Shown here in pieces: positions 24,314-31,354 of a stretch of DNA of 33,321 nt. The translations under genes and the position numbers were made by a program. This DNA is from Spirochaetota bacterium. Lineage in GTDB: Bacteria; Spirochaetota; GWE2-31-10. Positions within the stretch are counted from its first letter, which is position 1. Each line of letters opens with the position of its first letter. The stretch is from assembly GCA_022361115.1 (NCBI GenBank), contig JAKSBL010000491.1, positions 1 to 33,321 on the forward strand, given 5' to 3'. The notes under the pieces were generated by a model, which worked only from the letters and a program-made list of their open reading frames with translations, was not told the DNA's origin and did no database searches.

Positions 24314-24691
24314 TTATGAGCTTTTTTCTTCCATACTTCTAGTGGCAATAAGATCAATGCCTGTATTGCAAATATTTTTTAAAATCACATCACCGATCTT
24401 TACTGGTGCTTTAACTTCTACCTGATTTATTGCCTGCATACATTTAAAAATTAATTCTTTGGGAATCACCTCTTTGGTTCTAACTGGCAGTCGATTTAAA
24501 AAACCATTTTGAAGTTTAACTGTAGTTGGTAACATTCGTGTCGGAAAAGTTAATTCTTTCTTAGCATAAGCAATTCCCCTTTTACACTGGTTACCCTCTA
24601 TTTGAATATTTTCTATATCATTATCCTTTAATTCAACATTGAGCCGACATCCCATTGGGCAAACAATACATATCAATTCTTGATCATTCAT
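24314..24691 (-). CDS. DUF1667 protein of the glycerol-3-phosphate dehydrogenase cluster
   Basis: A 125-residue protein with C8, C11, C15 and C36 near the N-terminus (ICIVCPMGCRL ... GNQCKRG), a pattern suited to an iron-sulfur cluster, then a domain with RMLPTTVKL, IPKELIFKCMQAIN and PVKIGDVILKNI. DUF1667 proteins typically follow a GlpA-like and a GlpB-like gene, as here, and probably act as the third subunit carrying electrons from FAD. AGGAGG is six bases before the ATG, and only 12 bases separate it from the preceding gene, so it is translated from the same messenger. A weak AAAAAAGCT/AGCTTTTTT repeat follows. Confidence 0.92.
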   Translation of the reverse strand: MNDQELICIVCPMGCRLNVELKDNDIENIQIEGNQCKRGIAYAKKELTFPTRMLPTTVKLQNGFLNRLPVRTKEVIPKELIFKCMQAINQVEVKAPVKIGDVILKNICNTGIDLIATRSMEEKSS

Positions 24692-24703
24692 TGATGACCT
24701 CCT

Positions 24704-25963
24704 TTATTCTACTTCAACTGATAATTCATGAAAATTATTCCCCCGTATTAAGGCAGAATCTATGGTCAGGTGCTGCATTTCACCTGGTGCAACATACCTT
24801 TTTTTAAACGATTTCAATGGCTTACCATCGGCTTTAACCACCAGATTAATATCACGATAAACATTTTTAACCCGCATAAAAAGTTCAACATCGCTTTGCA
24901 AATTTTTCTCTCTTAATACTTGAGAAATGACATAATTAATACCATGCCTCCCTTTTGTCCGAATAACCGGTGTTTCAATCTCTTTCTGTTTTTCATTTTT
25001 TATGTAATTAGCAGCAAAATACCCGGCCTTTTGACTTTCTCTGGTAACAAAATCAACTAGATCATGAACATGAACCACATTGCCACAGGCAAAAATTCCT
25101 GGAACAGTTGTTTCCATTGCTTCATTAACAATAGGTCCACTAGTGAGTTTATCTATTTTAATTCCTGCCTTGCTAGACAATTCATTTTCTGGAATTAAAC
25201 CGACAGATAACAAAAGTGTATCACAGTCATAATGAATTTCTGTGCCTGGGATTGGTTGTCGATTTTCATCAACTTCTGAAACAATCACTCCCTCCAATCG
25301 TTCTTGCCCAAAAATTTTTGTAACTGTGTGACTGAGCAGTAATGGTATATCAAAATCATTGAGACACTGAACAATATTTCTGGTCAATCCACTGGAGAAA
25401 GGCATAATTTCTGCCACAGCATGAACTTTAGCACCTTCCAAAGTCATTCTTCTGGCCATAATCAGCCCAATATCACCAGAGCCCAAAATGACCACATTTT
25501 TACCTACCATGTAACCTTCCATATTGATAAATCGCTGAGCCGTTCCAGCAGAAAAAATCCCCGCAGGCCGGGTACCTGGGATTGCTAATGCTCCACAAGC
25601 TCTTTCACGGCATCCCATTGCTAAAATAACCGCCTTTGCTTCTAGTTTTACCATTCCCATTTTTCGATTGATGGCTTTGATTGTTTTGTCTGCTGTTAAA
25701 TCAATGACCATTGTGTCTAACCAGTACTCAATTCCTAAATCTTGCAGTTCATTGATAAATCTTTCTGCATATTCCGGGCCAGTTAATTCTTCCTTAAATA
25801 TATGTAAGCCAAATCCATTATGGATACACTGTTGAAGTATTCCGCCTAATTCTCTGTCTCTTTCTAATACCAAAATACTACTAATTCCATTTTTTTTTGC
25901 TTCTATTGCAGCAGCTAAACCAGCAGGTCCGCCACCAATAACAATTAATTCATATTTTTTCAT
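24704..25963 (-). CDS. FAD/NAD-dependent oxidoreductase, GlpB-like subunit
   Basis: A 419-residue pyridine-nucleotide-disulfide-type flavoprotein. The FAD-binding GGGPAG motif is at residues 10-15, CRERACGALAIPGTRPAGIF is the family-typical central stretch, the second Rossmann motif GSGDIGL (about 160) should bind NAD(P)H, and GIFACGNVVHVHDLVDFVT closes the FAD site. With the GlpA-like and DUF1667 proteins it would form an anaerobic glycerol-3-phosphate dehydrogenase that passes electrons to an acceptor other than oxygen. AGGAGG precedes ATG 25961-25963; it starts 14 bases after the glpA-like gene. The acceptor cannot be read from the sequence. Confidence 0.93.
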   Translation of the reverse strand: MKKYELIVIGGGPAGLAAAIEAKKNGISSILVLERDRELGGILQQCIHNGFGLHIFKEELTGPEYAERFINELQDLGIEYWLDTMVIDLTADKTIKAINRKMGMVKLEAKAVILAMGCRERACGALAIPGTRPAGIFSAGTAQRFINMEGYMVGKNVVILGSGDIGLIMARRMTLEGAKVHAVAEIMPFSSGLTRNIVQCLNDFDIPLLLSHTVTKIFGQERLEGVIVSEVDENRQPIPGTEIHYDCDTLLLSVGLIPENELSSKAGIKIDKLTSGPIVNEAMETTVPGIFACGNVVHVHDLVDFVTRESQKAGYFAANYIKNEKQKEIETPVIRTKGRHGINYVISQVLREKNLQSDVELFMRVKNVYRDINLVVKADGKPLKSFKKRYVAPGEMQHLTIDSALIRGNNFHELSVEVE

Positions 25964-25977
25964 ATGGCCTCCTTAAT

Positions 25978-27417
25978 TTAAGCTTTGGTTTTTCCAGTCA
26001 AAACCACTGATTTGACACCTTCTTTTCTGACTTCTTCTATATCAATAGCCAGCTCTCTGGCTAAAATTTCCATAACCCGTGGAGAACAGAATCCACCCTG
26101 ACAACGGCCAGCTCCGGGGCGTACTCTTCTTTTAATACCATTTAAGGTTCTGCCTCCAGCTTTTCGATGGATTGCATCAATAATTTCTCCTTCAGAAATC
26201 ATTTCACAGCGACAGATAATGTTGGCATAACGGGGTTCTTTTTTAATCATTGCTGATTTTTGCTCATCAGTTAATTTTTCCATTTTAACGCGAGGTTTTC
26301 TGACTGGATTAAAATCAGATTTAGTTTTTAACTGGCCTTTTATTTTCTTAACTATATCAACAACTTCAAAGGCAATGGCAGGTGCTGATGAAAGGCCAGG
26401 TGATTTAATACCTGCTACATTGACAAAACCTTTGACTTTTGATTCTTCAATGATAAAATCACCTGTTGAAGGCTCGGCCCGCAAACCAGTAAAAGTAGTT
26501 ATGGTTTGATGATAGGGTATATCAGCAATTAGCTTACTAGCCATTGATCGAACTAATTGTAAACGCTTTGCAGTGGTTTCTACTGCTTCTCTTTCTTTTT
26601 CTGCCAGATCTTCTGCATCTGGACCGATGAGAATATTTCCATCAACCGTTGGAGTCACCAAGGTCCCTTTTCCCAGTTTAGTTGGGCAAGGAAAAATAAC
26701 AGAATTAACCAGACCTTTGGCAGTTTTATCCAAGAGAAAATATTGTCCTCGTCGGGGATGAATCACAAACCCAGGCTCTGGAGTAATCATTTGATAGACT
26801 TTATCAGAATGGACTCCGGCACAATTGATAACAATTTTTGCCTGTATCTTTTCAGCCTCTGAACAGATAACAAAAGAATCACCCTCTTTGGTTATTTCTT
26901 TTACTTCAAAATTAAGTTTTAATTCCGCACCATTTTCTAAGGCATTTTCAGTATATGCGACAGCCAATTCCCAGGGTTCTGTAATTCCAGCACTAGGAGC
27001 AAGTAAAGCTGCTTTAATTTCTTCGGAAAGATTAGGTTCTTTTTTTCTAATCTCATGAGCAGAGATGATTTGTAAATCAGGGATTCCTAGCTTTTTTCCA
27101 TTTTCCAAAAGATGCTGTAATGTATGAATTTCTTCCTGTGTAAAAGCACAAACCAGTGAACCAACTCTCATAAATGGGACAGATAATTCCTGACAAACCC
27201 GGGAGTACATCCGATTCCCTAAGGCGTTGAGTCGTCCTTTTTTACTAGTATGACTGGCATCATACCCAGCATGAACAATGGCACTATTGGCTTTGGTAGC
27301 ACCAGTTGCTATATCATTATTTTTTTCTAATAATATTATATTTAAATCATAACGGCTTAATTCTCGAGTAATAGCGCTTCCTATTACTCCAGCACCAATG
27401 ACAGCTATATCAAACAT
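25978..27417 (-). CDS. glpA: Glycerol-3-phosphate dehydrogenase, GlpA-like with a BFD-like [2Fe-2S] domain
   Basis: Oxidises sn-glycerol 3-phosphate to dihydroxyacetone phosphate. The 479-residue protein opens with the FAD motif GAGVIG (8-13), followed by the DAO fold (KANSAIVHAGYDASH, EPNLSEEIKAALLAPSAGITEPWELA, FTGLRAEPSTGDFIIE). A C-terminal domain carries C402, C404, C439 and C444 (CRC, then CQGGFC) in the BFD-like [2Fe-2S] pattern, as in GlpA-type enzymes of anaerobes. GAGGAG is six bases before ATG 27415-27417. It begins a three-gene unit with the GlpB-like and DUF1667 genes, preceded by a long inverted repeat related to that in the glpK leader. A lactate- or hydroxyglutarate-type substrate is less likely given glpK next door. 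Confidence 0.93.
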   Translation of the reverse strand: MFDIAVIGAGVIGSAITRELSRYDLNIILLEKNNDIATGATKANSAIVHAGYDASHTSKKGRLNALGNRMYSRVCQELSVPFMRVGSLVCAFTQEEIHTLQHLLENGKKLGIPDLQIISAHEIRKKEPNLSEEIKAALLAPSAGITEPWELAVAYTENALENGAELKLNFEVKEITKEGDSFVICSEAEKIQAKIVINCAGVHSDKVYQMITPEPGFVIHPRRGQYFLLDKTAKGLVNSVIFPCPTKLGKGTLVTPTVDGNILIGPDAEDLAEKEREAVETTAKRLQLVRSMASKLIADIPYHQTITTFTGLRAEPSTGDFIIEESKVKGFVNVAGIKSPGLSSAPAIAFEVVDIVKKIKGQLKTKSDFNPVRKPRVKMEKLTDEQKSAMIKKEPRYANIICRCEMISEGEIIDAIHRKAGGRTLNGIKRRVRPGAGRCQGGFCSPRVMEILARELAIDIEEVRKEGVKSVVLTGKTKA

Positions 27418-27439: not shown

Positions 27440-27520
27440 AGAGAAAGTCATTTTCATCCTATCCGGATATAGATTTTGTAATCACTTTAGCAAATGGATA
27501 TGTTCAAAATGACTCTCTCT
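27440..27520 (-). promoter_or_regulatory. Leader inverted repeat upstream of glpA (candidate GlpP RNA target)
   Basis: Arms 27506-27520 and 27440-27454 are 15 bases each; on the minus-strand RNA they pair with a single G-U. The arms (AGAGAGAGTCATTTT and AAAATGACTTTCTCT) and the loop motif TATCCA...AAAGTG match the glpK leader terminator. No T-run follows. Instead the downstream arm overlaps a second small hairpin (TTCTCT-AGTA-AGAGAA, 27430-27445) that abuts the Shine-Dalgarno GAGGAG at 27424-27429, so alternative pairing could affect translation. Confidence 0.6.
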
Positions 27521-27585
27521 CCTCCTGTCATCTGGTACTTAACTTACCGAACAAAATCCTTTTTTTAAAAAGTTTTTGATCATGT

Positions 27586-27625
27586 TAAAAAAATCATGGA
27601 GAGAAGATATCTCCCCTCCATGATT
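27586..27625 (-). terminator. Intrinsic terminator after glpK
   Basis: On the minus strand a 34-base near-perfect hairpin (27592-27625, two G-U pairs) beginning AATCATGGAG and ending CTCCATGATT is followed by a run of T. On the plus strand the same two positions become A-C mismatches, so the element is built for the minus strand. It should reduce read-through from glpK into glpA. Confidence 0.88.
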
Positions 27626-27643: not shown

Positions 27644-29149
<1,506 letters not shown>

Positions 29150-29190: not shown

Positions 29191-30096
29191 TTAAAAAACT
29201 AGTGGAATCGCACTATATATTCCTACTGTAGCAAATAATATTGATATTGAAGTCATAGTTGCAATGGCACCAGCTGGCGGATCAATATGAGTATCCCCCC
29301 AGATATTAAATAACCTTGCGTACAGCTCACCAATCAATGCACCTCCAATACCAAAAATTGCTCCCCAGAGAATACTGCCACCACTAGCAACAGTAGCTAC
29401 AGCAGCCGGCAAAGTAATATGATGTGTAACTGGAACTTTTGTACCAAACTGGATAAATACTAAACTGGCAGCTGAGATACCAAATCCTAAAACCATCCCG
29501 CCATTAGGTACGCTAACTGCTAAATAAGAACCAAAGAGTCCGGCTCCGAGACCAATTACTAACACCTGTAATAAACTACTCTGCCAGGGAACCCAGCAAT
29601 AGGAACTACTAGGTGAAAAACGGGATTCACCAGCAGGTACTTTTCCAAGTAAACCTGTACTACTAAACAGAACCCGTGATAACATTCCAGATAAGAAAAC
29701 AGTTAAAGCAACTGTATCTGTCCAACCACCTGGCATTGCTAACAATATGTTTAATACATAACCAAGAACTCCAAAAATACCACCAATTAATAATACATCA
29801 AAGCTATTGGCTCCCATCATGGCCAAATTTACACTTCTTCCACTTTCACCTTCGCCAAGTTTATTTCTTTTAGCAGCAAATGCTGTAGCAGCAACACCAG
29901 CAGCAAATCCACCCACATGAGGGCCCCAGGCACCAAAAGCAACTGTACTGGTAAAATCTCCATTACCGGTTGCTACATTAATTGCTACACCTGCTATAAC
30001 AAGAAAACCTACGAATATAAACGCTGTTTGCGCACCAATTGCCGCACCAAAAACACCACTGGCAAATGCCAGTAAAAAACCAGTTAAACTAAACAT
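29191..30096 (-). CDS. Multi-span membrane protein in the glycerol operon (candidate glycerol uptake protein)
   Basis: A 301-residue, glycine- and alanine-rich integral membrane protein with about nine or ten hydrophobic segments. Conserved-looking polar spots sit between them: STVAFGAWGPHVGG, PVTHHITLPAAVA and DTHIDPPAGAIA, the last two with histidines and prolines that could line a pore or bind substrate. It lacks the two NPA motifs of GlpF aquaglyceroporins and I do not recognise its family name. Its place between the GlpP-type leader and glpK is where glpF normally stands, so glycerol transport is the simplest inference. AAGGAG is seven bases before ATG 30094-30096. The 53-residue membrane protein just upstream may be its partner. 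Confidence 0.88.
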   Translation of the reverse strand: MFSLTGFLLAFASGVFGAAIGAQTAFIFVGFLVIAGVAINVATGNGDFTSTVAFGAWGPHVGGFAAGVAATAFAAKRNKLGEGESGRSVNLAMMGANSFDVLLIGGIFGVLGYVLNILLAMPGGWTDTVALTVFLSGMLSRVLFSSTGLLGKVPAGESRFSPSSSYCWVPWQSSLLQVLVIGLGAGLFGSYLAVSVPNGGMVLGFGISAASLVFIQFGTKVPVTHHITLPAAVATVASGGSILWGAIFGIGGALIGELYARLFNIWGDTHIDPPAGAIATMTSISILFATVGIYSAIPLVF

Positions 30097-30206
30097 CTTT
30101 CAACTCCTTCAATTATTTTTGTCACTTTTTTTAATTTTTTGGATCACATTTTTTTTGCATTAAGTCATAACAAACCCCCTTTTCTCTGCAAAACAAGAAT
30201 ATTCGG

Positions 30207-30368
30207 CTAGCATAAATATTTCTTTAAAAAGAAATCTGCAATAATCAGAACCAAAAACCAGTTAATCCATTTTTGTCCCTTTTGATAAATTTTAATCGAA
30301 GAAACTGTCATTCTTTTAAACAGCTTCTGGGAACCATAATGAGTTTCTAATGCACCGGTAATCTTCAT
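30207..30368 (-). CDS. 53-residue small membrane protein at the head of the glycerol operon
   Basis: A short gene: MKITGALETHYGSQKLFKRM at the start, a basic middle (KIYQKGQKW) and one hydrophobic segment at about residues 35-47 (NWFLVLIIADFF), ending KKYLC. The Shine-Dalgarno AAAGGAG lies seven bases before ATG 30366-30368, and the codon usage looks normal for the window. It is the first gene after the leader terminator and 110 bases before the 301-residue membrane protein. I know no homologue. It may be a small subunit or regulator of that protein, or a leader gene. Confidence 0.72.
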   Translation of the reverse strand: MKITGALETHYGSQKLFKRMTVSSIKIYQKGQKWINWFLVLIIADFFLKKYLC

Positions 30369-30386: not shown

Positions 30387-30419
30387 GAAGGACAGCTCCC
30401 TTAAATGGAGTTGTCCTTC
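30387..30419 (-). promoter_or_regulatory. Hairpin directly upstream of the small-protein ribosome site
   Basis: GAAGGACA (30387-30394) and TGTCCTTC (30412-30419) with inner CTCC/GGAG, one mismatch and a seven-base loop. On the minus strand it is followed by a run of A and then AAAGGAG, so it is not a terminator. Its CTCC could also pair with the ribosome site. Confidence 0.5.
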
Positions 30420-30430
30420 CGATTTTATTT

Positions 30431-30501
30431 AAAAAAAAGAGAGTCATTATAAACACTTGTCTACCCACTTTGGATAGCACTTAGTTTATAATGGCTCTCT
30501 T
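30431..30501 (-). terminator. Leader terminator of the glpK operon (candidate GlpP antitermination site)
   Basis: On the minus strand, 18-base arms (30484-30501 and 30437-30454, one C-A mismatch) enclose a 29-base loop that itself folds as CTATCC-AAAGT-GGGTAG, and the hairpin is followed by eight T (30431-30438). It lies about 90 bases after the predicted transcription start and before the first gene, just downstream of glpP, the same arrangement as glpP-glpFK in Bacillus, where GlpP with glycerol 3-phosphate prevents leader termination. Confidence 0.82.
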
Positions 30502-30576
30502 TTCTCTTGCCATTTTTTCTGTTACTAAGTTTACATATAAACTAGTTAATTATTATGTCTTTTATTTATGAGTTCC

Positions 30577-30717: not shown

Positions 30718-31335
30718 TTAAACACTTTGTTTCAAACAATTTAGATTATCAGGCTGAATTGTTTGATTAAATATCCATAACCATTCATTGCTGGTAGATA
30801 TTCCAATTGCTCCAGAATTAATACTATTATCAATATCTACCTTATCCTTTATTAATCCACCAGTTATGATCGGTTTATTTATTTTTGTAGATACATATTG
30901 GGTTATTCTGGGCATGATACCAGGTAATATTTCTACAGCATTAGCTACCTTAACAGATTGAATTCCTGATTCTAAATTGAGAGAATCCAATAAAAACAAT
31001 CTTTGAATCGTAAATATCCCTTTTTCTTTGGCAAATTTAATCAGTTTTGGTTTAGTTGAGATAACTCCATCTGGATGAAAATTTTGAATAAAAAAGTTCA
31101 AACCTGTTGTATCTTTAGAAAATCCACCAATCAGGTCAAAATGTACATATACCATTTTATGTGCATCTTTTAGTTGATTAATAATAGATGTTAAATTAAA
31201 AATATTCCCGATTAAAACAAAAACATTTTTCGCTTTTGAAGCAATGACAGTATCAAGTTTTTTAATATTATTTAAAGCCGCTATAACAGGATACTCTTCT
31301 AAGTTATCTATTAAAAAATCATGATAATTTTTCAT
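30718..31335 (-). CDS. glpP: Glycerol-3-phosphate-responsive antiterminator GlpP
   Basis: A 205-residue RNA-binding antiterminator with a TIM-barrel-like fold. Family stretches are clear: PVIAALNNIKKLD, NVFVLIGNIFNL, HKMVYVHFDLIGGFSKD, PDGVISTKPKLIKFAKEKGIFTIQRLFLLDSLNLES, VEILPGIMPRI and KPIITGGLIKDKVDI...GAIGISTSN. With glycerol 3-phosphate bound, GlpP lets RNA polymerase pass terminators in glp leaders. Two starts are possible; I choose ATG 31333-31335 with AGGA eight bases upstream, because the ATG at 31342-31344 touches its purine run. Its target leaders are probably 30431-30501 and 27440-27520. Confidence 0.94.
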   Translation of the reverse strand: MKNYHDFLIDNLEEYPVIAALNNIKKLDTVIASKAKNVFVLIGNIFNLTSIINQLKDAHKMVYVHFDLIGGFSKDTTGLNFFIQNFHPDGVISTKPKLIKFAKEKGIFTIQRLFLLDSLNLESGIQSVKVANAVEILPGIMPRITQYVSTKINKPIITGGLIKDKVDIDNSINSGAIGISTSNEWLWIFNQTIQPDNLNCLKQSV

Positions 31336-31354
31336 TGCATTCATCCTAATCCGT

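Follow-up and report, generated by a model that had tools for sequence, protein, structure and literature searches.

A predicted non-MIP glycerol/diol permease in the glpF position of a Spirochaetota glp operon

The glp locus and its leaders

The window, i.e. the whole stretch of 33,321 nucleotides analysed here, contains a glp operon on the minus strand. The order is glpP, a terminator-like leader, an ORF of 53 residues, the gene of a 301-residue membrane protein, glpK, glpA, glpB and a DUF1667 gene, with the following features.

30718..31344 (-): glpP, glycerol-3-phosphate responsive antiterminator (PF04309, 193.5 bits)
30430..30505 (-): leader hairpin followed by U8, candidate GlpP terminator/antiterminator (fold and stem arms)
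30207..30368 (-): 53-residue ORF with one predicted span, probably translated, orphan (ribosome site, codons, homologue search)
29191..30096 (-): 301-residue membrane protein, predicted glycerol/diol permease of the GrpO/rrnAC0550 type (homologue contexts, AlphaFold2 model, 51% identity to E. coli GrpO)
27644..29140 (-): glpK, glycerol kinase (TIGR01311, 757 bits)
27440..27521 (-): second leader stem, 5' of glpA (arm motif AGAGAGTCATT, common to the first leader)
25978..27417 (-): glpA-type glycerol-3-phosphate dehydrogenase with DAO and BFD-like domains (PF01266, 226 bits; PF04324, 51 bits)
24704..25963 (-): glpB-like FAD oxidoreductase (PF07992, 121 bits; gene order repeated in loci L042, L061, L070 and L076)
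24314..24691 (-): DUF1667 protein, last gene of the glp operon (PF07892, 121 bits)

The 301-residue ORF starts with an ATG preceded by the ribosome site GAAGGAG. It is located downstream of glpP and 50 nucleotides upstream of glpK; there is no hairpin of note in the gap to glpK, and no MIP gene at the glp locus. The ORFs, the gene order and the TIGR01311 and PF04309 matches confirm the original prediction that the small ORF and the membrane protein fill the glpF position, between the GlpP leader and glpK.

The first leader forms a long stem followed by U8, with arms at 30484-30502 and 30436-30454. Its folding energy is -54.3 kcal/mol, compared with a mean of -26.2 for shuffled sequences (z = -7.8). 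A copy of the arm motif AAAGAGAGTCATTATAAAC with three mismatches is found in another long stem immediately 5' of glpA; the chance expectation for such matches is 0.06 in the whole window. This common motif suggests one regulator for both leaders, presumably GlpP. With its glpP gene and a terminator-like leader 5' of the first catabolic gene, the locus has the layout of a GlpP-controlled glp operon, in which glycerol-3-phosphate would act through GlpP on the leader terminator and thereby on operon expression. A search of Rfam gave no match. By eye, a stem ending in a U run is absent 5' of the homologue in eight other loci (L009, L015, L027, L040, L042, L054, L071, L086), so that such a control element may be confined to the window locus.

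Two other structures were observed in the operon. A second hairpin of 13 pairs (30387-30419) is found between the leader terminator and the ribosome site of the 53-residue ORF, and it could affect translation of this ORF. Between glpK and glpA, at 27590-27625 (-), a strong inverted repeat, ATCATGGAGGGGAGA...TCTCTCCATGAT, is followed by T's and is probably a terminator splitting two glp transcription units.

The 53-residue ORF has the sequence AAAGGAG seven nucleotides ahead of the ATG. On the codon score it reaches +0.085 bits per codon, compared with 0.033 for the 99th percentile of random sequence and a median of 0.207 for real segments; a stop-free run of 52 codons has a chance of about 1.8% at the local composition. 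Given the ribosome site and a codon score above random, the ORF is probably translated. In the related loci, the rest of its own genome and 100 relatives no convincing homologue was found, and the best match among the relatives (E 0.003) is interrupted by stops. The ORF could encode a leader peptide or a small membrane protein limited to this lineage; nothing found links it to transport, and it is at most a lineage-specific extra in the permease operon. On its 3' side, at 30158-30180 (-), a two-codon ORF with a ribosome site (GGGGG-TTTGTT-ATG ACT TAA) resembles the start of the 53-residue ORF.

A membrane protein family with an internal duplication

The 301-residue protein has no match in Pfam at E <= 1 and none in NCBIfam, and 71 family members gave only isolated chance matches to either database. 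In a sequence search of the PDB one weak match was obtained, to methane monooxygenase subunit A (E 0.0097 and 0.026); we take it as chance and reject this kinship.

Relatives were collected by an alignment- and profile-guided scan of the GTDB genome contigs, as peptide patterns from the single sequence were too specific and gave no match. At least 352 relatives were confirmed, the best 80 of these were kept, and the survey comprises 88 loci. The kept loci cover nine bacterial phyla as well as haloarchaea. Plasmid members are found in Rubrobacter, Microbacterium, Rhodococcus and haloarchaea, and the family is rare in its own phylum, occurring in four of 393 Spirochaetota genomes. The homology extends over the full length and includes the motifs FGxxGPH, THH and THIDPPA, all present in the window protein; the conserved polar residues in the alignment are H60, D127, H225, H226, D268, H270 and D272. 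These sequences make up a true family, of which the protein is a member and for which Pfam and NCBIfam have no model. The closest homologue among those kept, from Desulfoluna (L009), is 58% identical and has no glycerol gene nearby.

The AlphaFold2 model, built from 64 sequences, is confident (pLDDT 96.9, pTM 0.94). It contains seven long helices and two pairs of short half-helices, residues 47-56 with 65-76 and 200-210 with 225-237, and not the nine to ten plain spans that had been proposed from the sequence. Comparing the profiles of the two halves with hhalign gives a probability of 78% and an E-value of 1.8e-5; GPH60 is aligned with THH226, and D127 with D272. Each half has a polar motif between two short helices (GPH60 and PVTHH226) and an aspartate motif (TD127T and DTHID272PPA). 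The protein is, on this profile evidence, an internal duplication. According to our model, each half would consist of three long helices and one hairpin, with an extra first helix ahead of them, which would make an inverted repeat with facing hairpins, the plan of several channels. Foldseek found no relative at E <= 0.001 in the PDB or BFVD; the best TM-scores against the PDB are about 0.2, and the aquaporin fold is not among the matches.

Gene contexts of the homologues and MIP channels

Among the 88 loci, 20 contain glpK or DHA-kinase genes, 17 a glycyl-radical enzyme (diol-dehydratase loci), 17 belong to other microcompartment loci and 34 to other contexts; the loci surveyed were kept for being closest to the query, so these proportions are not a census. 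glpK is present within the fetched flanks of 18 loci, and DHA kinase in two more. Under a rough null model (1.5 glpK per 4000 genes, 12 genes per locus) 0.4 loci with glpK would be expected. For 13 of the 88, glpK is on the same strand and at most 300 bp from the homologue. Counting propanediol genes as well, 54 of the 88 loci are in glycerol or propanediol contexts.

The set of glpP, glpA, glpB and DUF1667 genes is repeated in L042, L061, L070, L071, L076 and L086, and DHA kinase adjoins the homologue in L024, L042, L048, L049 and L086. In the haloarchaeal layout, the Natribaculum homologue directly follows glpK. A plasmid of Microbacterium sp. J1-1 (NZ_CP089591.1, L005 4293-8873) carries consecutive genes for an epoxide hydrolase, a haloalcohol dehalogenase, GlpK and the homologue, with transposases on either side. 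From its gene content, it looks like a mobile cassette for a halogenated-propanol degradation route ending in glycerol. The same plasmid has a second copy of the homologue (record 67850-68509).

The maximum-likelihood tree places the window protein in one group with the Desulfoluna protein and two Chloroflexota proteins that adjoin glpK. This group is next to the glycyl-radical propanediol clade, and the archaeal branch is long. The glycerol label changes at least five times on well-supported branches, which means that the association with glycerol genes was gained or retained in several separate parts of the tree.

Of the 17 genomes with a microcompartment context, 15 encode PF02286, the large subunit of the B12 diol dehydratase, and from the contig coordinates this gene appears to be about 10 kb from the homologue in about 13 of them. 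The propanediol-type loci also have genes for BMC shell proteins, PduO, PduP-like proteins, PduL, DJ-1/PfpI, acetate kinase and PocR-sensor proteins. The neighbourhood survey suggested in the original prediction thus shows glpK recurring beside the homologues in many unrelated lineages, which supports uptake by a non-MIP protein in the glpF position. However, propanediol loci outnumber glycerol loci (34 against 20 of the 88), which indicates that the family serves small polyols and diols and not glycerol alone.

No glycerol or propanediol genes flank the homologue in the other 34 loci, and the substrate range may be wider. Sugar-diacid type (CdaR-like) regulators adjoin homologues in L058 (4448-5677) and L067 (4504-5706), and the contexts of L032, L036, L073 and L081 are unrelated. 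Given these contexts, the range of the family probably exceeds glycerol and propanediol. On a plasmid of Rhodococcus qingshengii (NZ_CP042915.1, L008 4815-12564) a distant homologue is found amid genes for an aldehyde dehydrogenase, an NDMA-dependent alcohol dehydrogenase and an acryloyl-CoA reductase, which hints that another diol or alcohol may be a substrate. A comparison of the glycerol-context with the propanediol-context sequences gave no clean specificity position.

It had also been argued that the lack of any MIP channel points to a replacement. While there is none at the locus, a PF00230 search of the window's own genome identified one MIP gene, on contig C46. Its product has 221 residues with an NPARS motif; the gene adjoins a LacI-type regulator and has no glp neighbours. 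We take this protein to be of the water-aquaporin type. A glpF may have been missed in this genome, as the bin is 85.8% complete. The bin has a second glpK-glpA pair, on contig C256 of 3.7 kb (L128 774-3743), with no permease gene visible; as the bin is 5.9% contaminated, this pair may belong to another organism.

MIP genes are absent from 12 of the 18 genomes with glycerol-linked homologues. They are, however, also absent from 44 of the 69 (64%) glpK-bearing genomes among 100, the window's own and its relatives, where glpK was counted from matches over the curated cut-off. The absence therefore proves little, and we rejected it as proof of replacement; what counts is the position of the gene.

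Predicted function and known systems

The 301-residue protein is probably a non-MIP permease of the predicted family that includes GrpO and the haloarchaeal glpK-linked proteins. Glycerol would cross the membrane through it, to be trapped inside as glycerol-3-phosphate by GlpK. The two hairpins would meet and let small uncharged polyols pass selectively. Transport would be facilitated diffusion pulled by the phosphorylation inside, as with GlpF, but coupling to protons is also conceivable.

At the locus, the permease reading is supported by the order of glpP, leader, permease and glpK and by the short, hairpin-free gap. Among the homologues it is supported by the excess of loci with glpK (18 against about 0.4), the two with DHA kinase, the recurrence of the glp gene set, the haloarchaeal layout, the Microbacterium cassette and the changes on the tree. 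The propanediol loci, with PF02286 in 15 of 17 microcompartment genomes and 17 glycyl-radical loci, the internal repeat, an independent prediction (PMC3102087) and the RefSeq name of GrpO, a permease, agree with it. Against it stand the 34 loci without glycerol or propanediol genes, a closest kept homologue that has no glycerol gene, and a MIP absence no commoner than in glpK-bearing relatives. The seven conserved histidines and aspartates could also serve catalysis or ion coupling, and glycerol also diffuses through membranes unaided.

The same seven residues would fit a transporter coupled to protons or other ions. The substrate here might also be dihydroxyacetone, 1,2-propanediol or glycerate instead of glycerol entering by facilitated diffusion, since homologues are found beside DHA kinase, beside the sugar-diacid type regulators and in propanediol loci, and the window protein is close to the glycyl-radical propanediol clade. 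We consider such a transporter rather unlikely, as glpK is directly downstream and its closest neighbours in the clade, L015 and L027, are encoded beside glpK. It is improbable that the protein is an integral membrane enzyme or sensor of glycerol or diol metabolism, whose histidine and aspartate cluster in THH and THIDPPA would bind a metal. The Pfam, Foldseek and PDB sequence searches gave no similarity to any known transporter, which would agree with such a role. The kinase, B12 and glycyl-radical pathways, however, miss no enzymatic step yet need entry of their substrate, and a duplication whose halves each hold a pair of short helices is typical of channels and transporters. Least probable is the two-subunit uptake system of the original prediction, formed by the 53- and 301-residue proteins. 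The small ORF does lie between leader and permease, its ribosome site is good and its codons resemble those of coding sequence, but it is an orphan in every set searched, its weak matches hold stops, and the proposal is unsupported.

The permease reading can be extended to the family, which, by gene neighbourhood, stands in the places of GlpF and PduF, both MIP channels. With about even chances, we propose that it is a widespread, structurally new and internally duplicated class of facilitators for small uncharged polyols that has repeatedly replaced these aquaglyceroporins in bacteria and archaea. If so, one family would explain glycerol uptake in many bacteria and most haloarchaea, and 1,2-propanediol uptake in many microcompartment bacteria, including about a tenth of complete E. 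coli genomes. In glycerol and diol bioprocesses it could be of use as a component that is not an aquaporin, and the question of channel or carrier design could be tested on it. Specialists may find it of interest that these tests gave the family no fold relative, that it keeps appearing where GlpF or PduF would stand, and that it can be tested directly.

We compared the window protein with three known systems. In haloarchaea, the glpK-adjacent membrane protein rrnAC0550 was predicted to represent a new family of glycerol transporters, and bacterial homologues by glycerol or propanediol genes were noted (Anderson et al. 2011, PMC3102087); the prediction is repeated in PMC3402447. We place rrnAC0550 in the family of the window protein by its gene position and through the Natribaculum relative, which is also by glpK, is 35% identical over its length and has the GPH, THH and DPPA motifs. 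The central idea of the original prediction is thus sound, but it was published in 2011 for haloarchaea and bacterial homologues.

E. coli GrpO, named "propanediol utilization system permease" in RefSeq, belongs to the grp glycyl-radical microcompartment locus and is 51% identical over 281 residues, with the same length and the same motifs. It differs in its surroundings, which are those of a propanediol locus, with genes for BMC shell proteins and a glycyl radical enzyme, and not those of a glp operon. DNA homologous to grpO is present in 537 of 5426 E. coli genomes. In the literature searched, to which the most relevant subscription papers did not belong, we found no transport experiment on the family, nor any experiment testing GrpO.

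The MIP channels GlpF and PduF are alike in gene position and presumed task, and a two-fold repeat with paired short helices appears to be a general plan they have in common with the 301-residue protein. Unlike them, it has no PF00230 match, no NPA motifs and no fold match in the PDB. What is new here is a confident model without a structural relative, the internal duplication, the recurring link with glycerol genes across the tree, and the stem motif of the two leaders.
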